A stretch of 50,217 nucleotides of DNA from Acidobacteriota bacterium (GTDB lineage Bacteria > Acidobacteriota > Terriglobia > UBA7540), in contig CADDZJ010000018.1 of assembly GCA_902812415.1 (NCBI GenBank), positions 1 through 50,217 of the forward strand. The letters are read 5' to 3'. The notes under the pieces were generated by a model. The model searched no databases and was not told where the DNA came from. It saw only the letters and a list, made by a program, of their open reading frames with translations. Positions 25,226 through 45,485 of the stretch are shown here, one piece after another (positions within the stretch are counted from its first letter, which is position 1; each line of letters opens with the position of its first letter). Both the position numbers and the translations under genes were made by a program.

Positions 25226-25252
25226 AAAGTGGCTTAAAGTAGCTAAAAGTGG
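25226..25252 (+). promoter_or_regulatory. Three AAAGTGG-type MraZ boxes at 10-bp intervals
   Basis: AAAGTGG (25226-25232), AAAGTAG (25236-25242) and AAAGTGG (25246-25252) are spaced exactly 10 bp apart. MraZ in other bacteria, notably mollicutes, binds closely similar AAAGTG repeats in its own promoter region. Their position at the expected transcription start predicts autoregulation of the dcw cluster by the MraZ encoded just downstream. Confidence 0.75.
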
Positions 25253-32890: not shown

Positions 32891-34021
32891 ATGTTCTATT
32901 TTCTTTACCTTAAATTTTACAGCCATTTTCATGTTCTGAATCTCTTCCGCTATATTACTTTCCGCACGGCATATTCCAGCCTTACGGCGCTTCTGCTTTC
33001 CTTGCTCTTGGGTCCGTGGTTGATTGAAAAGCTCAAGAAATTTCAGATCGGGCAATATATTCGTGAAGAAGGCCCATCGTCTCACATGGCAAAAGCCGGC
33101 ACGCCGACCATGGGCGGCGTGCTGATCGATCTCTGCATTGTTGTGCCGACCCTGCTTTGGGCTGACCTCAGCAATATCTTTGTATGGCTGGCTTTGGGAG
33201 TGACGGTAGCCTTTGGCGCCATCGGTTTCTGGGATGATTACCTGAAACTCCGGCGCAAGCATAATCTGGGACTCCGAGCGCGCTCCAAGTTATCCCTTCA
33301 GATTTTGATCGCGGTGCTCCTGGCGGCGGCTTTAGGGGTGCTTTCTGAGCGCGGTCTTTATTCCACGAAGCTTACTTTCCCCTTTTTCAAGAATCTCCGC
33401 CCAGACTTCCTTATCCACGCCTTTCTGCGCCATAGCTGGGTGTATCCGCTGGCCTTTTTACCCTTTGTGGGCCTGGTCATTCTGGTGGTGGTGGGATCCT
33501 CAAACGCGGTCAATCTCACCGACGGTTTGGATGGGCTGGCCATCGGATGTGTGATCATCGCGGCCTCGGCGTTGACGGTGCTCACCTACGTGGCTGGAAA
33601 CCTGGTTTGGGCCACCTATTTGGACCTGGAGCACTTGCCGAAATCAGGGGAATTGACGATCTTTTGCGGCGCCATGGTGGGTTCAAGCCTTGGTTTCCTG
33701 TGGTACAACGCCTATCCGGCGGAAATCTTCATGGGGGATGTGGGTTCGCTCTCGCTCGGCGCGGCCATTGCCGCCGTAGCCGTCATTATCAAGCAGGAAC
33801 TCTTGCTGCCGTTTTTCGGGGGTATCTTCGTGGTGGAGGCTCTCTCGGTGATCCTTCAGGTGGGGTCTTACAAGCTCCGGCATAAGCGGGTGCTGCGCAT
33901 GGCTCCCATCCACCATCATTTTGAGCTGCTGGGATGGAAGGAGTCGAAGATTATCGCCCGCTTCTGGATTGCGGCGCTCGTTTTCGCCCTTTTCGCCCTG
34001 ACCACGCTGAAGTTGCGGTGA
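32891..34021 (+). CDS. mraY: Phospho-N-acetylmuramoyl-pentapeptide transferase MraY
   Basis: MraY transfers phospho-MurNAc-pentapeptide to undecaprenyl phosphate, giving lipid I. The 376-residue polytopic membrane protein (about ten helices) contains the conserved GTPTMGGVLI, FWDDYLKL (Asp pair), NAVNLTDGLDGLA and FMGDVGSLSLG motifs. The C-terminal IHHHFELLGWKESKII loop, with its His triad, is also complete. No strong Shine-Dalgarno is visible before ATG 32891. It is followed by a 151-nt gap that holds an internal promoter and operator-like palindrome. Confidence 0.96.
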   Translation: MFYFLYLKFYSHFHVLNLFRYITFRTAYSSLTALLLSLLLGPWLIEKLKKFQIGQYIREEGPSSHMAKAGTPTMGGVLIDLCIVVPTLLWADLSNIFVWLALGVTVAFGAIGFWDDYLKLRRKHNLGLRARSKLSLQILIAVLLAAALGVLSERGLYSTKLTFPFFKNLRPDFLIHAFLRHSWVYPLAFLPFVGLVILVVVGSSNAVNLTDGLDGLAIGCVIIAASALTVLTYVAGNLVWATYLDLEHLPKSGELTIFCGAMVGSSLGFLWYNAYPAEIFMGDVGSLSLGAAIAAVAVIIKQELLLPFFGGIFVVEALSVILQVGSYKLRHKRVLRMAPIHHHFELLGWKESKIIARFWIAALVFALFALTTLKLR

Positions 34022-34048: not shown

Positions 34049-34078
34049 TTGACGGATCGAAATTAGTGCGCATAAAAT
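34049..34078 (+). promoter_or_regulatory. Internal dcw promoter upstream of the ribbon-helix-helix gene
   Basis: TTGACG (34049-34054) and TAAAAT (34073-34078), 18-nt spacer, form a good sigma-70-type promoter between mraY and the ribbon-helix-helix gene. The predicted start near 34086 leaves a leader of about 87 nt. The perfect palindrome 34062-34088 covers the spacer end, the -10 and the start site. Confidence 0.6.
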
Positions 34079-34088
34079 ACGCACTAAT
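34062..34088. promoter_or_regulatory. Operator-like perfect palindrome across the internal promoter
   Basis: ATTAGTGCG (34062-34070) and CGCACTAAT (34080-34088) are exact reverse complements, separated by the 9-nt centre CATAAAATA that includes most of the -10 box. The location is typical of a repressor operator. The nearest candidate ligand is the ribbon-helix-helix protein encoded 85 nt downstream; many such proteins bind palindromes in their own promoters. Confidence 0.65.
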
Positions 34089-34172
34089 GCGCGATGAGCG
34101 CTGAGGTGGTCGAAACCGTTACAAAGAGCCTTTCGGCCGAGATATAGCCCAAAGCGCGCAGGATGGAACGCG

Positions 34173-34355
34173 ATGGCAAGGCCTAAATCCTTCCGCAATC
34201 CGACGCGGGTAAGCCTCACCTTGAACCGTGAGACGGTGGCGAGGGCCCGGCGGCTGGCGCGCGAAAATCGCCGCTCCCTCTCGGAACTGGTGTCTGAAAT
34301 CCTGGACGGGTATTTCCGCAAGAACGGCCACCCGCGAAAGAGGAACACGGCATGA
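34173..34355 (+). CDS. Ribbon-helix-helix DNA-binding protein inside the dcw cluster
   Basis: A 60-residue basic protein with the CopG/Arc-type fold. The beta strand is TRVSLTLN (about 11-18), helix A is RETVARARRLARENR (19-33), and the turn and helix B are SLSELVSEILDGYF (35-48). Basic ends follow. The conserved hydrophobic and polar alternation in the strand should present R12, S14 and T16 to the DNA major groove. An AGGA lies about 10 nt before ATG 34173. The stop overlaps the murD start as ATGA, so the two are translationally coupled. It is not part of the canonical dcw set. I infer an autoregulator acting on the palindrome at 34062-34088; an antitoxin role is less likely because no toxin gene follows. 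Confidence 0.85.
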   Translation: MARPKSFRNPTRVSLTLNRETVARARRLARENRRSLSELVSEILDGYFRKNGHPRKRNTA

Positions 34356-36226
34356 TCGAATTGCGCAACAAGCGTGTTCTGGTGGTCGGCCTGGCCCGCA
34401 CCGGTCAGGCGGTCGCCTTCCGGCTGGCCCGCGAGGGGGCGATCGTCACCGTCACCGATCTGCGTCCGCCGTCCGCTTTTGGCGCCATGCTCCATGAGCT
34501 GATGGATCGGAAGATCGGCATGGAGCTTGGAGTTCACCGCGAGGAGACCTTCCTGAAACAGGACCTGATCGTGGTCAGCCCCGGCGTTCCCTGGGATTTG
34601 CCTCAGCTTGAAGCGGCGCGGCGGCGAAAGATCCTGATTGTGCCGGAGGTGGAAGCCGCCAGTTGGTTTTTTCAGGGAACCCTTGTAGGCATTACGGGCA
34701 CGAACGGGAAAACCACCACCACTGCGCTGCTGGGTAAAATGCTCGAAGCCTCCGGCTACACCACCTTCGCCGTGGGGAACATCGGCATTCCCCTGATTTC
34801 CGCCGTAGACCTGTTCTCCGTCGACTCGATTGTGGTGGCGGAGCTGAGCAGCTTTCAACTTGAAGCGATCCAGAAATTCCGGCCTCATATCGCGGCGCTG
34901 CTGAACATTACGGAAAATCATCTCGACCGGCACCGCACTTTCGACGCTTACGTCAGCGCCAAGGCCCAGATCTTCCGCAATCAGCAGGCCGACGACTACG
35001 CCATTCTGAACGCGGATGACCCCACGGTGGTGGGCCTTGCGCCCGCCATCGCCAGCCGCAAGGTCTTCTTCAGCGCCAGCCAGGATTTGCCCGAAGGCGT
35101 GCTGCTTTCGCGGGGGCGCATTCTCTACCGCGTGGGGCACCTGGAGCGCATGCTGATGGAAGAGCGGGAAATCAAATTGCGCGGCAAATTCAACGCGCAG
35201 AACGTCATGGCGGCTGCGGCTGCGGCGTGCGTTCTGGGCGCCGATTTTAAATCCATCCGCAGCGCCGCGCGCGAGTTCACCGGCGTCGAGCACCGGCTGG
35301 AATACGTTCAGACCCTGCGCGGCGTGGATTTCTACAATGACTCCAAGGCGACCAGCGTGGATGCCGCCGCGAAGGCGCTTTCCACTTTTGAGCGCGGTGT
35401 TCACCTGATTCTGGGCGGGAAGGATAAAGGCGCGCCTTACACGCCGCTCAAGCCGCTCATTGACCAACGCGTCAAGTCCGTTTACCTGATCGGCGCCGCG
35501 GCTGAAAAGATCGCCGCCGATTTGCAGGGCGTGGATTTGCAATATGCCGGCGATTTGGAGAAAGCGGTGGAGATGGCTTTTGCGCGGGCGGTTTCCGGCG
35601 ACACCGTCCTTTTGTCTCCGGCTTGCGCCAGCTATGACCAGTTTCGGGACTTCGAGGAGCGCGGGCGAGCCTTTAAAGAGATCGTGCATCGTCTGGCTGC
35701 GGAACCGCGCGCGATGCAGGCATGGGCTCCGCCTTCGGCTTCCCAGGCATCTCCGCTGGAACCGGAGGCTGGAGAATCCAAACCTTCCTCCGGGAGCGAG
35801 CTCGACGCTGGGAATTCTTCTGCCCTTCAATCGGTTCGGAGCGAGTCTCTGAGTCCTGCTCCGAACGACGCCGAAAATGAACCTTTCGATCACGCTTTCC
35901 AGGCTGCGCCTGCGAGGTCATTCGGAGCAATAGTAGAAGCAAGTCCGTCTGAAGCGCCCTCCGAGACGCCGGCGCCTCATGAGCCGGCCTATATCTACGA
36001 AGTTGGCGGCGGGGAAATAATCTCTTCGGGAGAAGACTACGTTCAACCGGAGTTTGATGAATCCGGCGATTCCGGAAAAGCTCTCCCATTGCGGCCCCTG
36101 GAAGCGGATTCGGAACCCATATCGCCTTATGAAGTGACGGGGAGTTTGGAGGGCGACGCAGGAAAGTCTGCGGGAGCGAGTGAGGAAGGCATCACCAGGG
36201 AGAAGGCTTCTTCAACGAAATTGTAA
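34352..36226 (+). CDS. murD: UDP-MurNAc-L-Ala:D-Glu ligase MurD with a long C-terminal extension
   Basis: MurD adds D-Glu to UDP-MurNAc-L-Ala. Residues 1-450 form a normal MurD: Rossmann-like N terminus (VVGLARTGQAVAFRLA), P-loop ITGTNGKTTTT (about 114-124), ITENHLDRH, FNAQNVMAAAAA, HRLEYVQ and NDSKATSVDAAAKAL, and ending in EERGRAFKEIVHRL. The usual family length is about 450, but this protein has 624 residues. The extra 170 or so are Pro/Ser/Glu/Ala-rich, acidic and probably disordered, with one more ordered patch (AYIYEVGGGEIISSGEDYV). ATG 34352 overlaps the stop of the ribbon-helix-helix gene. The tail is continuous in frame without a frameshift, so it is likely real. Confidence 0.94.
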   Translation: MIELRNKRVLVVGLARTGQAVAFRLAREGAIVTVTDLRPPSAFGAMLHELMDRKIGMELGVHREETFLKQDLIVVSPGVPWDLPQLEAARRRKILIVPEVEAASWFFQGTLVGITGTNGKTTTTALLGKMLEASGYTTFAVGNIGIPLISAVDLFSVDSIVVAELSSFQLEAIQKFRPHIAALLNITENHLDRHRTFDAYVSAKAQIFRNQQADDYAILNADDPTVVGLAPAIASRKVFFSASQDLPEGVLLSRGRILYRVGHLERMLMEEREIKLRGKFNAQNVMAAAAAACVLGADFKSIRSAAREFTGVEHRLEYVQTLRGVDFYNDSKATSVDAAAKALSTFERGVHLILGGKDKGAPYTPLKPLIDQRVKSVYLIGAAAEKIAADLQGVDLQYAGDLEKAVEMAFARAVSGDTVLLSPACASYDQFRDFEERGRAFKEIVHRLAAEPRAMQAWAPPSASQASPLEPEAGESKPSSGSELDAGNSSALQSVRSESLSPAPNDAENEPFDHAFQAAPARSFGAIVEASPSEAPSETPAPHEPAYIYEVGGGEIISSGEDYVQPEFDESGDSGKALPLRPLEADSEPISPYEVTGSLEGDAGKSAGASEEGITREKASSTKL

Positions 36227-36268: not shown

Positions 36269-37372
36269 ATGGCTCGCAAACTTGAATCTGATCTCATCCT
36301 GTTCGGCGCCATCCTGGTGCTGGTGATTTTCGGGCTCGTCATGGTTTTCAGCGCGTCCGCGGTGATGGCTTCCGAGCGCTATGGCTCCAGCTACTATTTC
36401 CTGCTTCGACAGGGAATCTGGGCTGCGCTGGGCATTCTGGCGATGGTCGCCGTCATGAACATAGATTATCGCCAGTGGCGCAATCCGCGATTCATCTTCC
36501 CGGCCCTGGCGTTGTTGTGGATCTTGCTGGTGGCCGTGTATCTGACGCCGCGATGGCACGAAACGCATCGCTGGTTCCATATGGGGCCGCTCAATTTCCA
36601 GCCTTCGGAGCTGGCGAAGATTCTGATCGTGATCTTCTTCGCTTACTTTCTCGACCGACGCCGGAATTCGGTGAACGATATCCGCCACACCTTGCTGCCC
36701 CTGGGGCTTGTAACTGGTTTGACGGTGGTCCTCATCCTGAAGGAGCCAGACCTGGGCACTTCGCTGGCCATCTGTCTGATCTGTGCGGCCATGCTCTTTG
36801 CCGCCGGTCTTCACCTGCGTTACTTTGCGGGCGCGACGGCCGCCGCCGTTCCGCTGCTTTACGTGGTGATTTTTCATGTGGCTTACCGGCATAATCGCTT
36901 GCTCGGGTTCCTGCATCCGGAAAGCGACCCCTTGGGAAAAGGGTTCCAGATGCTGCAATCGCTGATTGCTGTCGGTTCAGGCGGCATTCTTGGCGCCGGG
37001 CTGATGGAAGGGCATCAGAAGCTTTTCTTCCTGCCGGAGCCGCAGACCGACTTCATTTATGCCGTGATCAGCGAGGAATGGGGATTCATCGGCGCGGCCC
37101 TGGTGCTGGTCGTTTTTGCCGTGATTCTCTGGCGAGGCTTGAGGGCGGCAATCTGTTGCAGCGATCACTTCGGGAAGCTTCTGGCGGTCGGCATCACGGT
37201 GTTGCTGGTCGGGCAGGCGCTGGTGAATATGAGCGTGGTTATCGGGCTGCTTCCCACCAAGGGAATTCCGTTGCCGTTCATCAGCTATGGCGGCTCTTCG
37301 CTGCTGATGAACCTGATTGCCGCCGGGGTTTTGTTGAATATATCCCAGCACGCGACCGGAGTCGTGTTCTAG
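36269..37372 (+). CDS. ftsW: Septal peptidoglycan glycosyltransferase FtsW
   Basis: SEDS-family polymerase that works with FtsI to make septal peptidoglycan from lipid II. The 367-residue membrane protein (about ten helices) has the family signatures FSASAVMASERYG, FQPSELAKI, LKEPDLGTSL (with the catalytic-region Asp) and the C-terminal LPTKGIPLPFISYGGSSLLM. It follows murD by 42 nt and precedes murG, the order that identifies it as FtsW rather than the rod-shape homologue RodA. The N terminus is short, as in most non-proteobacterial FtsW. Confidence 0.94.
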   Translation: MARKLESDLILFGAILVLVIFGLVMVFSASAVMASERYGSSYYFLLRQGIWAALGILAMVAVMNIDYRQWRNPRFIFPALALLWILLVAVYLTPRWHETHRWFHMGPLNFQPSELAKILIVIFFAYFLDRRRNSVNDIRHTLLPLGLVTGLTVVLILKEPDLGTSLAICLICAAMLFAAGLHLRYFAGATAAAVPLLYVVIFHVAYRHNRLLGFLHPESDPLGKGFQMLQSLIAVGSGGILGAGLMEGHQKLFFLPEPQTDFIYAVISEEWGFIGAALVLVVFAVILWRGLRAAICCSDHFGKLLAVGITVLLVGQALVNMSVVIGLLPTKGIPLPFISYGGSSLLMNLIAAGVLLNISQHATGVVF

Positions 37373-37427
37373 CGAGTTGCGCGAGCGGCAATCTTCAAAA
37401 CAGCAGGGCGGCGGCATGTGAACGGTG

Positions 37428-38621
37428 ATGAGAGTGGCGAAGCCCGTGAGTCAGCCTGATTCCCGCGCCTCCCTGCGAGTCCTCATGGCGGCGGGAGGAA
37501 CCGGCGGTCACATCTTCCCGGCTCTGGCGGTGGCTCGGGAATTGCAAGCGCGAGCAAAAGAGCGGCGTGACCCGGAGGGTAAAGAGCCGGGTTGCGCGAT
37601 CGAGTTTGTCGGCGCGGGTCGTGAGCTTGAGAAGCGGGCCATCTCCCAGGCTGGCTTTCCGTTGCACACGGTAGCCGCCGCAGGATTGAAAGGGATTGGC
37701 GGCCTGCGAAGAATCCGGAACTTTCTGGTTCTGCCACGCAGCTTTTGGGACACGGGGAAGCTTTTGCGGGAGTTTCGGCCCCATGTCGTTGCTGGCGTCG
37801 GAGGATACATCGCCGGGCCGGTGATGCTTGAAGCCGCGCTTGGCTGCATTCCCACTTTGTTGATCGAACCGAACGCGGTTCCGGGATTCACCAACCGTGT
37901 TCTGGCGCGCTTCATCGATCGAGCAGCGCTGGGTTTTGAGGAAGCGAGGTCTTTTTATGGCGAGAAGGCGCGTCTCACCGGGCATCCGGTGCGGAGTGAC
38001 TTCTATCAAATCGCTTCGAGACGCCCCGCTCCGCCCTTTTGCATTTTGATTCTGGGAGGAAGTCAGGGATCGGGAGCCATCAATGACGCGATGGTTTTCG
38101 CTCTCCCGCGCCTTGCCTGCCAGGCTGAGCGGTTCAGAATTATTCATCAGGCGGGTGAGCGGGATTTTGAGCGCGTAAGCCAGGCGTACCAGCTCCAGCC
38201 GATCTCGGCGGAGGTTTATGCTTTTATCGAGGATGTTCCGCGCGCTCTGGAACAGGCTGACCTTGTGGTCAGCCGCGCGGGAGCTTCGACCGTGGCGGAG
38301 CTTGCAGCCGCCGGGAAGCCTGCGCTTTTGATTCCTTTTCCGCATGCCACGGATCAGCATCAGTTGGCGAATGCGCGGGCCATGGAGCGCGCCGGCGGCG
38401 CAAAGGTTCTGGAGCAGCGCGAACTCACGCCGGAAAGGCTCTATGCAGAGGTGACAGCAGCGGTGAATGATCCTGAAAAGCTGATGGAGATGGGTCGCCG
38501 CGCGCGCCTGCTGGCCCATCCGCAGGCCGCTGCGCAGATCGCCGATTTGATTGAAGAGTTAGCGCAAGGCGCGAAGCGTCGCATTGGGTTCTTTTGCTGG
38601 GATAGGCGAGGCGTGGAGTAA
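37428..38621 (+). CDS. murG: UDP-GlcNAc:lipid I transferase MurG
   Basis: MurG adds GlcNAc to lipid I, yielding lipid II, at the cytoplasmic face of the membrane. The product has 397 residues, slightly longer than E. coli MurG, due to an N-terminal extension (about 16 residues) and a small insertion (RRDPEGKEPG). GT-B motifs: AAGGTGGHIFPALAVA (about 21-36), GVGGYIAGPVMLEA, ILGGSQGS and the C-terminal SRAGASTVAELAAAGKPALLIPFP (quoted in part: SRAGASTVAELAAAG), which holds the UDP-GlcNAc-binding region, followed by DQHQLANA. ATG 37428 is preferred to GTG 37425, which is only one codon upstream. Confidence 0.95.
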   Translation: MRVAKPVSQPDSRASLRVLMAAGGTGGHIFPALAVARELQARAKERRDPEGKEPGCAIEFVGAGRELEKRAISQAGFPLHTVAAAGLKGIGGLRRIRNFLVLPRSFWDTGKLLREFRPHVVAGVGGYIAGPVMLEAALGCIPTLLIEPNAVPGFTNRVLARFIDRAALGFEEARSFYGEKARLTGHPVRSDFYQIASRRPAPPFCILILGGSQGSGAINDAMVFALPRLACQAERFRIIHQAGERDFERVSQAYQLQPISAEVYAFIEDVPRALEQADLVVSRAGASTVAELAAAGKPALLIPFPHATDQHQLANARAMERAGGAKVLEQRELTPERLYAEVTAAVNDPEKLMEMGRRARLLAHPQAAAQIADLIEELAQGAKRRIGFFCWDRRGVE

Positions 38622-38646
38622 CGGCGCGCGGCGCCGAGGTGATTGG

Positions 38647-40044
38647 ATGCTGGGTAAGATTCGGAAAATTCATTTTGTAGGCATCGGCGGCATCGGCATG
38701 AGCGGCATCGCCGAATTGCTGCTGAATCTGGGATTCACCGTCTCAGGATCGGATTTGAAACAGACCCCGATCACCGAGCGGCTGGCGCGCCTGGGAGCCA
38801 AGGTCTACATCGGCCATGAGGCGTCGCACGCGCAGGGCGCGCAAGTGGTGGTGGTCTCGTCAGCCGTTCCATCCCGGAATCCCGAGATTGCTGAAGCTGA
38901 GCGCTTGCAGATTCCTGTCATCCCCCGAGCGGAGATGCTTGCCGAGTTGATGCGGCTGAAGTTCAGTGTGGCGGTGGCGGGCGCGCACGGGAAAACCACG
39001 ACCACTTCCATGATCGCCATCATGCTGACCGAGGCGGGCCTGGACCCCACAGCGGTGATTGGCGGGCGGCTGGATGTTTTCGGATCAAGCGCGCGCCTGG
39101 GTAAGGGAGAGCTGATGGTGGTGGAAGCAGATGAGAGCGACCGTTCGTTCCTCCTTCTGCTGCCTTCGATCGCGGTGGTCACCAATATCGACCGTGAGCA
39201 CCTCGATCACTATCGGGATTTCAATGAGATCATCGAGGCTTTTGTTTCTTTCATGAATAAGACGCCGTTCTACGGCGCTGTCATCGCCTGCGCCGACCTG
39301 CCTTGGCGTGAAACCCTTGAGTTGGTTCGGCCCCGGCTGCGGAGAAGGCTTCGGACGTATGGTCTCGAAGCGGGGTCGGATGTTACGGCTGCCCGTATCG
39401 AATGCCATCGAGGTGGGTCTTCCTTTCGGGTTTACGATTCCGGCAAGCACCTGCTTGATCTGAACCTTGCGGTTCCCGGCCGCCACAACGTGCAGAATGC
39501 CCTGGCGGCGGTGGGTGTAGGGCTTGAGTTAGGGCTGAGCGCCAGCCAGATCAGGCAAGGGCTTGAGCAATTCCACGGCGCTGACCGGCGGTTCCAGGTT
39601 AAAGCTGAAGTGGATGGCATCACCCTGGTGGATGATTACGGCCATCACCCGGCGGAGATTCGCGCCACACTGGAGGCGGCGCGCGCGCAGGGGGCGGGCC
39701 GCATCTGGGCCATCTTTCAACCGCATCGTTACACACGCACCCGGTTTCTGATGGACGATTTTGCGGGCGCATTCGATGGCTGTGAGCGCGTCTACGTGCT
39801 GGATATCTATCCCGCCGGCGAGGAGCCGATTCCGGGCATCACCTCCGGGCGGCTGGTCGAGCGGATGCGCGCATTGGGTTGCCGCACGGCGCGCTATGCG
39901 CCCTCGGAAGCCGATCTGATTGCTGAAATTCTGAGAGAAGTGGAATCAGGAGTATTGATCCTGACGATTGGAGCAGGGAGCGTTTGGAAGGTCGGCGAAG
40001 CCCTGGTGGAAGGGCTTGAGAAGACGGTGATGAGCGACCAGTGA
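38647..40044 (+). CDS. murC: UDP-MurNAc:L-alanine ligase MurC
   Basis: MurC adds the first stem residue, L-Ala, to UDP-MurNAc. The 465-residue protein starts LGKIRKIHFVGIGGIGMSGI (nucleotide-binding fold), has the P-loop AGAHGKTTTTSM (about 110-121), ADESDRSF, TNIDREHLDHY, PGRHNVQNALAA, and the C-terminal VDDYGHHPAEIRATL with FQPHRYTRT. All are diagnostic of MurC. ATG 38647 is chosen because GAGGTG lies 6-8 nt upstream and the motif-bearing N terminus begins there; the frame open from 38584 overlaps murG. It is 25 nt after murG. There is no murB or ddl after it. Confidence 0.95.
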   Translation: MLGKIRKIHFVGIGGIGMSGIAELLLNLGFTVSGSDLKQTPITERLARLGAKVYIGHEASHAQGAQVVVVSSAVPSRNPEIAEAERLQIPVIPRAEMLAELMRLKFSVAVAGAHGKTTTTSMIAIMLTEAGLDPTAVIGGRLDVFGSSARLGKGELMVVEADESDRSFLLLLPSIAVVTNIDREHLDHYRDFNEIIEAFVSFMNKTPFYGAVIACADLPWRETLELVRPRLRRRLRTYGLEAGSDVTAARIECHRGGSSFRVYDSGKHLLDLNLAVPGRHNVQNALAAVGVGLELGLSASQIRQGLEQFHGADRRFQVKAEVDGITLVDDYGHHPAEIRATLEAARAQGAGRIWAIFQPHRYTRTRFLMDDFAGAFDGCERVYVLDIYPAGEEPIPGITSGRLVERMRALGCRTARYAPSEADLIAEILREVESGVLILTIGAGSVWKVGEALVEGLEKTVMSDQ

Positions 40045-40087
40045 CGAGCGGCAAGAGGCTTGAATCACCTTTCAGAAAGGGCTCGTC

Positions 40088-41014
40088 TTGAGTTCCCCGG
40101 AGCAAATCCCGTTGCTGGACGAAGTGGTCGCGGAAGAGCTCTCTCCCGACCGCCAGAAGCGGAGAGTGGCAGGCGCGCGACGCGGCCGGACGGGACTGGG
40201 CGCGCGTTTCCTGAAGGCAGCGACATTCGGGATTCTGCTGCCATTGGTCCTGGCCTTCGGAGCTTACTGGATTGCGATGCGGGCCATCGCCTCCGAGCGC
40301 CTGGTCTTTCGGCCGGATCGTGATCTCGTGGTGAAGGGGAATCATTACGTCACGCGCCAGGACCTGCTTGCAGCGCTGGGCTTCAGCGATTCTGGAGTTG
40401 AGCAGTCGTTCAACATTTTCCGGCTGAACCTTGCGTCGGAACAGAAGCGCGTGGAAGCCATCCCCTGGATCAAGTCGGCGACCATCGCGCGGATTTTCCC
40501 TGACCGGCTCATCGTGAACGTGAAAGAGCGCGCGCCGCTCGCTTTCGCGCAGGTAGACGGTCGCCTGGAATTGGTGGATGAGGATGGTGTGTTTCTGCCC
40601 ATGCCGGGAAAAGCGTCTTTCGATTTCCCTGTTCTGTCGGGCCTGGATTCCGTCGCCAGCATCGATGAGCGCAAGGCGCTGTTGATCCCTTACATTGACT
40701 TTGTGAACGAGACTCGCAACGAGGTTGCGCGCTCAGGCTGGCTGATTTCCGAGGCGAATGTGAGTGATCCGAATGATCTCAGGGCGCTTCTAGTCGAGGG
40801 TCGCGAGACCGTCCTGGTACATTTTGGAAACCAGGATTTCGAGCAGCGATTCAAGACCTTTGCGACGCTCGCTCCGAAGGTGCTTGCCAGCAATCCGAGG
40901 ATCGATTCCATCGATCTGCGTTATCGCAACGAGGTGGTGGTAGACCCCTTCGAGGCGGCATCGCCTCCAGGCGCTGGCAGCGGGGTTTCCGGCAAGCCGG
41001 CGGGGAAGCCGTAA
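40088..41014 (+). CDS. ftsQ: Cell division protein FtsQ
   Basis: FtsQ/DivIB is a bitopic divisome protein that recruits and controls FtsL/FtsB and FtsWI. The 308 residues have a basic cytoplasmic N terminus, one membrane helix (about 47-66), then a POTRA domain (about 74-145: LVVKGNHYVTRQDLLAALG, quoted in part as VKGNHYVTRQDLL; IPWIKSATIARIFPDRLIVN). The beta domain carries VKERAPLAFAQVDGRLELVD and ends RIDSIDLRYRNEVVV. The start is TTG 40088, supported by an AAAGGG box 6 nt upstream; no in-frame ATG exists near it. The last 20 residues are Pro/Gly-rich. Confidence 0.92.
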   Translation: MSSPEQIPLLDEVVAEELSPDRQKRRVAGARRGRTGLGARFLKAATFGILLPLVLAFGAYWIAMRAIASERLVFRPDRDLVVKGNHYVTRQDLLAALGFSDSGVEQSFNIFRLNLASEQKRVEAIPWIKSATIARIFPDRLIVNVKERAPLAFAQVDGRLELVDEDGVFLPMPGKASFDFPVLSGLDSVASIDERKALLIPYIDFVNETRNEVARSGWLISEANVSDPNDLRALLVEGRETVLVHFGNQDFEQRFKTFATLAPKVLASNPRIDSIDLRYRNEVVVDPFEAASPPGAGSGVSGKPAGKP

Positions 41015-41060
41015 CGTTTCGGGTTTTCTCAACAGCCCGTGTCTTCCACAATCAGACTGA

Positions 41061-42284
41061 ATGGCATTGAAGGATTCCTACATTGCGGCGTTGGACCTGG
41101 GCAGCGCGAAGACCTGCGCCCTGGTGTGCGAGCCCGTGGAGAACGGCCGACTGCGGATGGCGGGGTTTGGAGTCGCCGAATCCAGGGGTTGGCGGCGCGG
41201 CACCATCGTGAACCTGGACTCGGCATTGCTTTCCATCAAGAAGGCTGTGGAGACGGCTGAAGACGCTGCGGGTGTGCCCATTGATAATGCCTATCTCGGA
41301 GTCGGCGGCCCTCACATCCAGGGTATCAATTCCAGGGGAGGCCTCAATCTGGAAAAGTCGCCTCAGGCGGCGCGCGAGGTGACGCATGAGGACGTGCGCA
41401 GGGTCTTTGAGGCGGCGCAGGCAGTGAGTTTGCCGCCAGACCGGAAAGTGATCTATGCCGAGAGGCAGGAATATCTGCTCGACTCGCAGAACGGTATCCG
41501 AAATCCCGTAGGCATGGTCGGCTCGCGGCTGGAAGTGAGCGTTCATCTTGTGACGGCCTCCACAGTGGCCCACGAGAATGCGGTGGCGGCGGTGAACCGC
41601 GTGGGCATCATGGTGAATGAGACGATCTTTGAGGCTTTGGCTGCGGCTGACGCCTGCCTGACGCCCGATGAGCGCGAACTGGGCGTGGCGCTGATCGATA
41701 TTGGAGGCGGAAGTTCGAACCTCATTATCTATCATGAAGGCAGCGTCTGGTCGAGCAGCGTCATTCCCATTGGCGGGGATCATTTCACCAATGACATTGC
41801 GGTGGGTCTGCGCACGCCGATTCCGGAAGCCGAGAAGATGAAAGTGGCCTGGGGGCGGCGCGATCCCTCGGAATCGGACGAAGCGCCGCTTGAGGTGGCG
41901 AGCGTTGGGGAGCGCCCGTCGCGCACGGTCAACTATGCGATGCTGCGGGAGATTATCGAACCTCGAATCCAGGAACTCCTGGAGTTGATTGCGAAGGAGT
42001 TGGAAAATTCTGGTTTACAAAGACAGTTGGGTGGCGGTATTGTCCTGACAGGCGGCGGCGGAAAGCTGGGAGGATTGGTGAGCGCGGCGGAGCGAGCGTT
42101 GGATTTGCCGGTGCGGCTTGGCCAGCCCTATGGCCTCGAAGCCATGGGCGATACGCTTCCTGATGCGGCGTATTCCACGGTGGTGGGCCTTGCGATTCAG
42201 GGCTATCGCCTGCGCATGCTCCATGGCTCGCGCAGCGCGGGGCTGACGGGCAGGCTTTGGGGCATCTTTCGAGGGAAGGGGTAG
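41061..42284 (+). CDS. ftsA: Cell division protein FtsA
   Basis: Actin-like ATPase that anchors FtsZ filaments to the membrane. The 407-residue protein begins [16 protein letters not shown] (phosphate 1 motif), has the 1C domain (about 85-165), the [14 protein letters not shown] phosphate 2 motif, and the adenosine motif [13 protein letters not shown]. It ends in a short amphipathic basic helix ([12 protein letters not shown]) suitable for membrane targeting. FtsA and FtsZ lie 22 nt apart in the usual order. The 1C domain distinguishes it from MreB and EutJ-like proteins. Confidence 0.95.
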
Positions 42285-42306
42285 ACACCCGTTTGGAGGA
42301 CCCAGC

Positions 42307-43491
42307 ATGGCGAATGAAAACGGCAGCGGGAATCTGAGAGTGGATTTCTCCGACGAATTGCGTCGCGGCGCGAAGATCAAGGTGATCGGCGTCGGCGGGG
42401 GCGGCGGTAATGCGGTGAATCGCATGATCGACGCCAAGGTGGAAGGCGTTGAATTCTGCGTGGCCAATACCGACCTTCAGGCTTTGAGCGTCTCGATGGC
42501 GCCCATCAAGATTCAACTGGGCGCCAAGCTGACCAAGGGATTGGGAGCGGGAGCGAATCCTGAGATCGGGCGCCAGGCCGCGTTGGAAGATACCGACAAG
42601 ATCCTCGACGTGCTGGACGGCGCCGACATGGTCTTCATCACCGCCGGTCTCGGCGGCGGCACGGGCACCGGAGGCGCGCCGATTGTGGCCGGCCTCGCCC
42701 GCGAGTTGAACGCGCTGACGGTGGCGGTGGTGACCAAGCCCTTTGCCTTTGAGGGCAAGCGCCGCATGGCCCAGGCGGAAATGGGGCTCGCCGAACTCGG
42801 CGAGGCGGTGGATACGGTCATCTGCATTCCCAACGAGCGCCTGATGCAGTTTGTGGATAAGAACACCAGCTTCTTTGAGGCGTTTCGCATTGCGGATGAC
42901 ATCCTGCGCCAGGGCGTTCAGGGCATCTCCGACATCATCACCATCACCGGCATCATCAACCGCGACTTCGCTGACATCAAGACGATCATGCAGGGCATGG
43001 GATATGCGGTGATGGGTACGGCGTCGGCGAGCGGCGAGAACCGCGCGGTGGAGGCCACGAATCGCGCTATTTCAAGCCCCCTGCTCGAAGACGCCTCGAT
43101 CAACGGCGCGCAAGGCATTCTGTTGAATATCACCGGCTCCAGCAAGCTGACTCTGCACGAAGTCCACGCGGCTTCGACCATCGTTCAGCAGGCTGCGGCG
43201 GAGAACGCCAACATCATCTTCGGCGCGGTGCACGACGAAGCGATGGGCCATGAGGTGAAAGTCACCGTGATCGCCACGGGCATCAAGAGCGATCGCCTCA
43301 CTTCGCTGCCCCGGCCGGCGGTTTCGAACGCTGCGAGCGCTGCGCAACACCAGACGCTGAAGGCCGCGGCGCCGAAGAGGGACAAGCTGCCCATCGAGGC
43401 CGACGCCCGGGGGATGGCGCACGAATTGCCGGCGGATGATTATGAGGTGCCGGCGTTCATGCGCCGCAAGAAGGTGGAAACCTCCCAGTAA
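42307..43491 (+). CDS. ftsZ: Cell division GTPase FtsZ
   Basis: Tubulin-like GTPase forming the Z ring. The 394 residues include the GTP-binding [14 protein letters not shown] (about 27-40) and the tubulin signature [10 protein letters not shown] (about 117-126). The T7 loop [11 protein letters not shown] follows, with the catalytic Asp residues, then a variable linker and the C-terminal conserved peptide [13 protein letters not shown] that binds FtsA. A good GGAGG box lies about 8 nt upstream of ATG 42307. The stop codon TAA shares its last A with the ATG of the next gene (TAATG), so a JAMM peptidase is translationally coupled to ftsZ. Confidence 0.97.
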
Positions 43492-43898
43492 TGGCCGGGC
43501 GGGTCAGGGTGCGCGCCGCCGTCCTCGATGCGATGCTCGCGCAGGCGCGCGCCGAGCGGCCCCGCGAGTGTTGCGGCCTGCTTGCGGGCGCGCAGGGCGT
43601 CATTTCGGAAATCCTTCCCGCTTCCAATCAACTCAAGTCCGAGACCGAGTATTTCATTCCCCCGCAGGAATTGATCGCCGCGTTGCGCTCCATCCGCGAG
43701 CGCCGCCTTGCTCATCTGGGGATTTATCACTCTCATCCCCGCAGCGAGAACATCCCTTCCCACCGCGATATTCAGGAAGCCAACTATCCTTCGTGCGTCT
43801 ATTTCATCATTTCACCGCATGCCGCAGCGCGCGCCATTCGAGCCTTTGAGATTCGCAACGGTGAGGCAAGAGAAGTTGAAATTGAGGCGGTGAAATAG
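43491..43898 (+). CDS. M67-family metallopeptidase (JAMM/MPN+ domain) coupled to ftsZ
   Basis: A 135-residue stand-alone JAMM protein with all catalytic residues: Glu in RPRECCGLL (about residue 23), HSHP (about 78-81) and S-x2-D in SHRD (about 88-91), giving the E...HxHx7Sx2D zinc site. Bacterial M67 peptidases of this size remove C-terminal tails from ubiquitin-like sulfur carriers such as ThiS-related proteins, and are usually next to cysteine or molybdopterin genes. Here no such gene is nearby; instead its ATG overlaps the ftsZ stop (TAATG). A role linked to division is an inference from this coupling alone. No ubiquitin-like protein is seen in the window. Confidence 0.9.
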   Translation: MAGRVRVRAAVLDAMLAQARAERPRECCGLLAGAQGVISEILPASNQLKSETEYFIPPQELIAALRSIRERRLAHLGIYHSHPRSENIPSHRDIQEANYPSCVYFIISPHAAARAIRAFEIRNGEAREVEIEAVK

Positions 43899-43964: not shown

Positions 43965-43995
43965 CGCATACATCGCAAGAAGCGCGATGTATGCG
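43965..43995. terminator. 12-bp perfect hairpin between the convergent dcw cluster and Fe-ADH gene
   Basis: CGCATACATCGC (43965-43976) pairs perfectly with GCGATGTATGCG (43984-43995) around a 7-nt loop. The site lies between two convergent genes, where a bidirectional terminator is expected, but there is no U-run on either side. Factor-assisted termination or another palindrome role remains possible. Confidence 0.5.
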
Positions 43996-44011
43996 CTGCC
44001 CATGGCGATCT

Positions 44012-45175
44012 TCAACAACCTCCGATGGCCCCCACCAGCATTTCGCTCATTTCATCAGGCGTCAGTTCGACAGGATTTCCCCGCGTGCTGCTGGCTCGGA
44101 TAGCCTTCTCGACCAGCCCGGGAACATCCTTGAGGGTCATGCCGTATGCGGCGAGCGGCGGGGTCTGGAGCTCACGGCACAGATCCCTCACCCATTCGAC
44201 GCCATCCTCCGCTTGAGCATCCGGTTTGCCGGTCAGAATGCTTGCGATTACCTGATAACGACCGAGCACCTCGCTCTCAGGATTCCGGGCGCGCAATGCC
44301 TTGATGTTGGCCTGCATTCCAGAAGGCAGCAGGGCTGCGCAAAGAGCGCCGTGCGGAGCGTCGAACATTCCCCCGATCGGGCCGGCAAACCCATGCACAA
44401 TGCCGAGGCCGGCATTGGCGAGCGAGAGCCCGCCCAGCAGGGCGGCCAGCGACATATCGGTTCTCGCCTCTGCGCTCGCGCCGTCGTGGTAGGCGCGGCG
44501 GAGCGAGCGGCCAACGCGGCGAAGCCCTTCCAGGCAATATCCATCCGTCAGAGGATTGGCGCGCGAGGAGACGTAAGGCTCAATCAACTGGCTCAGGGCA
44601 TCGCACCCGCTGCTCGCGGTTGCGGCGGGCGGCAGGCCGGAGGTCAACTCGGGATCGACGATCGCGAGCCTGGGCAGCATGTGCGGACTTCGCAAGCTCA
44701 CCTTCACCCGATGTTCGCGCGAGGCCAGAACGGCGTTGCGAGTGACCTCGGAACCCGTGCCCGCCGTGGTCGGAATGGCGATGAAAGGCGCAGACGCTGC
44801 CCGCAAAGGCTGGCCCTTGCCGATCACTTCGAGATAATCCATCAACTCGCCCGGATTTGTGAGCAGCGCGGCAATCGCCTTGCCTGCATCGATCACGCTC
44901 CCTCCGCCGAAGCTCACGACAAAATCGCGCGCCTCTCGCCGCGCCGCTTCAAGGCCGCGGGCGATCATTTCCAGCGTGGGTTCGGATTCAACCGAGAACA
45001 ACGCGCAGCTCACGCCTGTGGCATTGAGCGCTTTCGCCAGCGATTGCGCGCGGTCAGGCGAGCGCCCGGTCACGAGCAGCGCTCGCCGGCCGAACTCTTT
45101 GGCTGCAGGCGCGGCCTGCTTTGTGGTTCCCGCGCCGAAGAGAATGCGACCGGCCGTGGCGAATTCAAATTGCAT
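44012..45175 (-). CDS. Iron-containing alcohol dehydrogenase family protein
   Basis: A 387-residue group III (Fe-type) dehydrogenase: N-terminal NAD(P)-binding domain with VSFGGGSVIDAGKA (about 89-102) and PTTAGTGSEVT (about 134-144), then the helical metal-binding domain. The metal site is atypical. The canonical D-A-x-x-H reads GCDALSQLIEPYV, with Gln in place of the first His, and VHGFAGPIGGMFDAPHG keeps two His but has Gly where many members have a third. So either a subfamily with a different metal environment or altered chemistry is likely. An AAGGAG touches the ATG. It starts 4 nt after the stop of the monooxygenase gene, forming a two-gene operon. Substrate unknown. Confidence 0.88.
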   Translation of the reverse strand: MQFEFATAGRILFGAGTTKQAAPAAKEFGRRALLVTGRSPDRAQSLAKALNATGVSCALFSVESEPTLEMIARGLEAARREARDFVVSFGGGSVIDAGKAIAALLTNPGELMDYLEVIGKGQPLRAASAPFIAIPTTAGTGSEVTRNAVLASREHRVKVSLRSPHMLPRLAIVDPELTSGLPPAATASSGCDALSQLIEPYVSSRANPLTDGYCLEGLRRVGRSLRRAYHDGASAEARTDMSLAALLGGLSLANAGLGIVHGFAGPIGGMFDAPHGALCAALLPSGMQANIKALRARNPESEVLGRYQVIASILTGKPDAQAEDGVEWVRDLCRELQTPPLAAYGMTLKDVPGLVEKAIRASSTRGNPVELTPDEMSEMLVGAIGGC

Positions 45176-45179
45176 CTCC

Positions 45180-45485
45180 TTACCAGCCTTCGTCTGCGGG
45201 GAAGATATTCGTGTACTGAACCCGCGTCCGCTCTTCCGCCATCATGGGAGCAGCGCGATCCTTCCAGGCGTTATAGTGGGCGGTCTCTTTGTGCGCGGCG
45301 GGCGCCCGGCTGTTGCGGTAGACCTCGACGAGTACAAAACGAGTGGGATCGTCGGCCTGCTGCACCACGTCAAAGCGCGCGATTCCCGGCTCCTTCACGC
45401 TGTTGCGGGCATTCTCAATCGTTACCCGCTTGAACTCCTCCACGAACTCAGGTCTCACCCGAACGTGGACATGAACGATATGCAT
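45180..45485 (-). CDS. Antibiotic biosynthesis monooxygenase (ABM) domain protein
   Basis: A 101-residue dimeric alpha-beta barrel protein of the ABM/LsrG-like family: [20 protein letters not shown] (first strand and helix), [21 protein letters not shown] (quoted in part: [14 protein letters not shown]), then [12 protein letters not shown]. Members are cofactor-free quinol monooxygenases, LsrG-type isomerases or heme-degrading enzymes. A GAGGG box lies 6 nt before ATG 45485, and this start removes 14 unrelated residues of the longer frame. Its partner in the operon is the Fe-ADH 4 nt downstream, a combination suggesting oxidation and reduction steps on one small aldehyde, ketone or quinone, which cannot be named. 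Confidence 0.85.

Follow-up and report, generated by a model that had tools for sequence, protein, structure and literature searches.

A candidate ribbon-helix-helix autorepressor and its promoter between mraY and murD in the dcw cluster of a soil acidobacterial family

Introduction

Does the distal half of the dcw cluster have a promoter and a repressor of its own in some acidobacteria? Little is understood of how dcw genes are controlled from within the operon. The cluster usually encodes MraZ as its regulator, an AbrB-like protein that represses the first dcw promoter (PMC7761207). The window studied here, a stretch of 50,217 nucleotides of Acidobacteriota DNA, contains a full dcw cluster according to Pfam matches, with the gene order mraZ, rsmH (mraW), ftsL, ftsI, murE, murF, mraY, a small ribbon-helix-helix (RHH) gene, murD, ftsW, murG, murC, ftsQ, ftsA and ftsZ. 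An earlier note, made from the letters of the window, had proposed that the small gene and a palindrome upstream of it form an autorepressor and operator module, and had named the joint conservation of gene and palindrome in relatives as its test. The comparison with related genomes makes a dedicated RHH autorepressor of an internal dcw promoter quite probable in our judgement.

Results

Position of the small gene

The mraY stop codon ends at 34021 and murD starts at 34352. We found the 60-codon RHH gene between them as the earlier note had described it, including the stop codon that overlaps the murD start (ATGA). The coordinates of all features are given in Table 1. On the + strand no terminator-like site was detected between mraY and murD, so transcription from upstream also passes through the RHH gene. 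The MraZ-type boxes upstream of mraZ are a separate and known control point, apart from the new site.

Table 1. Features of the RHH locus and of the surrounding dcw cluster, in window coordinates.
Feature	Position	Strand	Basis
MraZ-type boxes AAAGTGG/AAAGTAG/AAAGTGG in 10-bp steps, upstream of mraZ	25226-25252	+	Sequence; mraZ by Pfam
-35 element TTGACG (family consensus TTTGAC)	34049-34054	+	Alignment of 22 genomes, TTTGAC 91-100% per position
Putative operator ATTAG-TGCGCA-TAAAA-TACGCA-CTAAT, dyad centre 34075	34062-34088	.	Sequence and 22-genome alignment
-10 element TAAAAT, centre of the dyad	34073-34078	+	Invariant in 22 genomes
Predicted transcription start region, about 7 nt past the -10	34085-34086	+	Inferred from promoter geometry
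84-nt leader in this species	34089-34172	+	Sequence
RHH protein gene, 60 aa, Pfam DUF6364, proposed autorepressor	34173-34355	+	Pfam match, purifying selection
murD; its ATG overlaps the stop codon of the RHH gene (ATGA)	34352-36226	+	Open reading frame; NTGA at the RHH stop in 21/22 genomes
ftsW, murG, murC, ftsQ, ftsA and ftsZ, downstream, would be co-transcribed	36269-43491	+	Pfam; co-transcription inferred

Three further characteristics of the cluster were observed. The 624-aa MurD ends in a Ser/Pro/Glu-rich tail of ~170 residues, beginning after about residue 450, that has no Pfam match and is probably disordered; proteins of similar length from the relatives L027 and L028 align with this long MurD. 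A Prok-JAB (JAB/MPN metalloprotease-like) gene at 43491-43898 begins exactly on the last base of the ftsZ stop codon and may be translationally coupled to ftsZ. On the 3' side of the dcw cluster there is a 480-aa open frame (43991-45433) with no Pfam match at 1e-5.

The RHH protein

By sequence profile the protein belongs to the RHH superfamily: Pfam DUF6364 matched with 30.4 bits, which is over the cut-off of 27.3, RHH_1 reached 18.7 bits, just below its cut-off of 20.5, and there were profile matches to CopG and Arc-like repressors. The structure predicted with AlphaFold was weak (pLDDT 62) and showed helices at residues 19-32 and 36-50 and no strand; the ribbon forms only in the dimer. Pfam gave no match to the MraZ domain in the 60-aa protein and the AAAGTGG boxes are located at mraZ instead, hence the protein is not a member of the MraZ/AbrB family. 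The most invariant part is the basic N-terminal arm together with the ribbon (MxRPKSFRNPTRVSLTL), which is the DNA-contacting part of RHH proteins, and the SLS at the inter-helix turn is also invariant. With an omega of about 0.13 and third codon positions changing 3-4 times more often, the gene is under purifying selection.

In the cases examined, homologues outside the orthologue group were RHH antitoxins beside PIN-domain genes. Elsewhere in the window's own genome we encountered a PIN-domain toxin/RHH antitoxin pair (L002, G000:C8:68426-68554), and its antitoxin was the only other homologue found in that genome, with 40% identity. The protein could accordingly be a solitary antitoxin that lost its toxin and was lodged by chance between mraY and murD, where it would repress its own promoter with an incidental effect on the division genes, or neutralise PIN toxins elsewhere. 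This would agree with the closest homologues both in and outside the family, which are RHH antitoxins beside PIN-domain toxins, and with autorepression being usual in toxin-antitoxin systems (PMC2812701). However, the antitoxin homologues are 86-109 aa long and have a C-terminal tail of 30-40 residues, whereas the 60-aa protein ends about 8-10 variable residues past the second helix. No adjacent toxin gene, PIN or other, was found at the locus, where the only neighbours are mraY and murD, and the fixed place and the overlap with murD have been kept across many genera under purifying selection. The protein thus has neither the adjacent toxin nor the C-terminal toxin-neutralising tail of a type II antitoxin, and we regard a stranded antitoxin as improbable. 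The origin of the protein is probably an antitoxin-like DNA-binding domain.

Promoter and inverted repeat in the window

The promoter proposed in the earlier note, TTGACG and TAAAAT with an 18-nt spacer, is present and matches the consensus at 10 of 12 positions. Its -10 lies inside the inverted repeat ATTAGTGCG/CGCACTAAT, the perfect 9+9 palindrome of that note, which becomes 12+12 with one mismatch when extended. Beside the predicted start, the A's at 34086-34087 are invariant in relatives. We counted six distinct palindromes of this quality in the window compared to 1-4 hits in Markov simulations, and seven promoter-like matches in 18 kb compared to a mean of 5.3 after shuffling. By itself the palindrome is not beyond chance in 50 kb, and since palindrome and promoter match are both near chance level when taken alone, comparative evidence was needed. 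We also observed that the 84-nt leader holds a 17-codon open frame (34094-34147, ATG AGC GCT ... TAG) in a frame other than that of the RHH gene.

Conservation across relatives

Among 39 genomes of the family, which are soil acidobacteria, 22 have the RHH gene at the mraY-murD site. In other families no such protein was detected at E 0.001 among the 151 relatives searched; a profile search found only five weak matches outside the family when run on 399 genomes of the class, and no match at E 1e-6 in 396 genomes of the phylum. Wherever the neighbourhood was readable the order was mraY-rhh-murD (the contig of G020 ends before mraY, so that its neighbourhood was read on one side only). The RHH stop codon reads NTGA and could overlap the murD start in 21 of the 22 genomes, although a CTG start is needed in two of these.

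We then aligned the upstream DNA of the 22 genomes and obtained TTTGAC-N8-NNNTTTNTGCGCATAAAATGCGCANTAA; every gene copy shares the promoter/operator TTTGAC...TTTNTGCGCATAAAATGCGCANTAA. Within the core 13 of 17 positions are invariant, and the best dyad centre in the alignment coincides with the -10. The conserved core TGCGCATAAAATGCGCA with outer TTT/TAA differs from the arms given in the earlier note, whose perfect palindrome in the window is a local version of this family core. The mean pairwise difference is 5.7% for the core and 13% for the -35, compared to 64-74% for the spacer and the flanks. With at most one mismatch the core occurs at the RHH locus in all 22 genomes, and exact copies were found at no other place; in the window's own genome the operator was found at the RHH locus only. 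The palindrome stands out from chance because it sits on the -10 and is conserved in 22/22 gene-keeping genomes. The gap between core and ATG is 6-10 nt in 16 of the 22 genomes, and the transcripts of those relatives would be nearly leaderless. Six genomes, including that of the window, have leaders of 64-120 nt with sequences unlike one another, and the distance to the gene therefore varies. For L017, L018, L013 and L010 we observed long imperfect inverted or tandem repeats in the mraY-rhh spacer 5' of the operator, e.g. GAAAGTCGAAC / GTTCGACTTTC. They are absent from the window and are possibly repeated extragenic elements.

The inverted repeat could instead form an RNA hairpin for processing or pausing in read-through mRNA. 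The consensus could fold into a stem of 7 bp and a loop of 3 nt, but a C-A mismatch falls into the stem in 8 of the 22 genomes, the loop is fully conserved, and the conservation reaches to the -35 at the right distance. No terminator was called on the + strand either, and Rfam had no match at the locus (PADLOC likewise returned nothing); we consider a hairpin function extremely unlikely.

Joint loss of gene and operator

In 15 genomes of the family the mraY-murD junction could be read and contains no intact gene, and the operator is gone or degraded in all 15. Decayed remnants of the gene persist in two of them: in G013, the sister of the intact G026, the gene has an internal deletion and there are several changes within the core of the promoter region, and in G031 the reading frame is decayed and the promoter is missing. 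In G024, which belongs to a clade whose other members carry the module, the junction is clean and measures about 34 bp. Read on a tree of mraY and murD, some nodes of which are weakly supported, this pattern would fit a single gain, once the earliest branches of the family had split off, followed by four or more losses. The module is not essential, because it was lost several times. As none of the 15 gene-negative junctions has an operator, the operator is kept only while the protein is, and gene, promoter and operator appear to be under selection and inherited as one unit. The test named in the earlier note, co-conservation of palindrome and gene, therefore turned out positive, which argues for the proposed autorepressor and operator module.

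This joint loss also bears on another explanation, in which the RHH protein acts elsewhere and the dyad is either bound by a different regulator or simply part of a strong sigma-70 promoter whose discriminator is GC-rich and of the stringent type. The GCGC directly past the -10 resembles the discriminators of stringently controlled promoters, and the -35 and -10 are strongly conserved themselves. The GC-rich stretch may itself be a feature of growth-rate control, which counts against the autorepressor. However, the conservation is symmetrical and extends to the TGCG 5' of the -10, which is dispensable for a promoter, and a site that is unique to the locus and vanishes with the gene is unexpected for a global regulator. 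We find such an explanation very unlikely.

For a wider regulon we searched with the core at one mismatch and also with TGCGCA-N5-TGCGCA. The off-locus matches share no gene and no AT core, and there was no other good site. Of the 21 matches examined 20 fall in open frames 190 codons or longer, the expectation for chance matches, although an open frame is weak evidence in GC-rich DNA; the window's own operator site is also within an open frame, on the other strand.

Discussion

An operator-like dyad that lies over the promoter of its own gene and is conserved together with it is the arrangement of an RHH autorepressor. The alignments are best read as an autorepressor with one target, which would have arisen from an antitoxin-like domain and would control an internal promoter for its own gene and murD onward. 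As TGCGCA is self-complementary, the site consists of two symmetric hexamers with centres 11 bp, or one helical turn, apart. Two RHH dimers could bind there on the same face of the DNA with their beta ribbons in the major grooves of both hexamers; over TGCGCA-TAAAA-TGCGCA they would cover the -10 completely and keep RNA polymerase from binding. This repression step is well supported by the comparison of genomes. A transcript from the internal promoter would carry the repressor gene first and continue via the ATGA overlap into murD, and probably on to ftsZ. For the distal half of the cluster such control is suggested by the gene order, the overlap and the lack of a detected terminator before murD, and an effect on murD-ftsZ would follow from these.

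Read-through from the upstream, MraZ-controlled promoter would cross the repressor gene as well. With no + strand terminator detected between mraY and murD, read-through would raise the repressor, and its level would report read-through: high transcription from upstream would shut the internal promoter and falling transcription would open it, so that the module might buffer the expression of murD-ftsZ. The buffering is the least certain step of the proposed mechanism.

A gene and a promoter with a probable binding site that are kept or lost together suggest a previously undescribed second control point for the division genes, and would show how essential genes can come under the control of an antitoxin-like DNA-binding domain. 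The module, which was apparently gained a single time and lost several times, offers a natural experiment, as division-gene expression and cell size can be compared between sister species with and without it.

The kind of protein has well-known relatives. CopG controls a plasmid copy-number gene and Arc a phage promoter. The 6-bp subsites recognised by E. coli RelB are occupied by dimers that sit on the same side of the helix, and close phasing is required (PMC2812701). Like these three, the protein would act as RHH dimers on paired short subsites on one DNA face, over its own promoter; in contrast, its gene is linked to genes for the cell wall and for division, with TGCGCA as the subsite, and RelB has a toxin partner and a tail. 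The nearest sequence relatives outside the orthologue group, PIN (VapBC-like) RHH antitoxins of the same phylum, differ by the C-terminal tail and the adjacent PIN toxin, both missing here. With MraZ the RHH protein would share a gene inside the dcw cluster, the binding of DNA and the repression of its own promoter, from which transcription enters division genes; MraZ, however, has another fold, uses AAAGTGG repeats as boxes and is encoded by the first gene of the cluster and not between mraY and murD.

In the open-access literature we found no report of an RHH regulator within a bacterial dcw cluster and no paper on DUF6364. The RHH autorepressor is a known kind of regulator; its setting, operator and lineage appear to be new as far as literature searches reach. 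The closest functional parallel, a resemblance by size and setting only, is CdrS of haloarchaea, a 55-aa RHH protein of the cdrS-ftsZ2 operon (PMC7439475). Both would be tiny single-domain RHH regulators with conserved synteny, and CdrS is co-transcribed with a division gene. Unlike the protein described here, CdrS is archaeal and a reported activator of ftsZ2, its operon is under a second RHH protein, CdrL, and there is no dyad on a bacterial -10. We offer it as a tentative idea, which may well prove wrong, that the acidobacterial protein is a bacterial counterpart of CdrS that arose separately: a second dedicated dcw regulator, made from an antitoxin-like domain, that would sense read-through from the MraZ promoter and keep the supply of the proteins from MurD to FtsZ constant.
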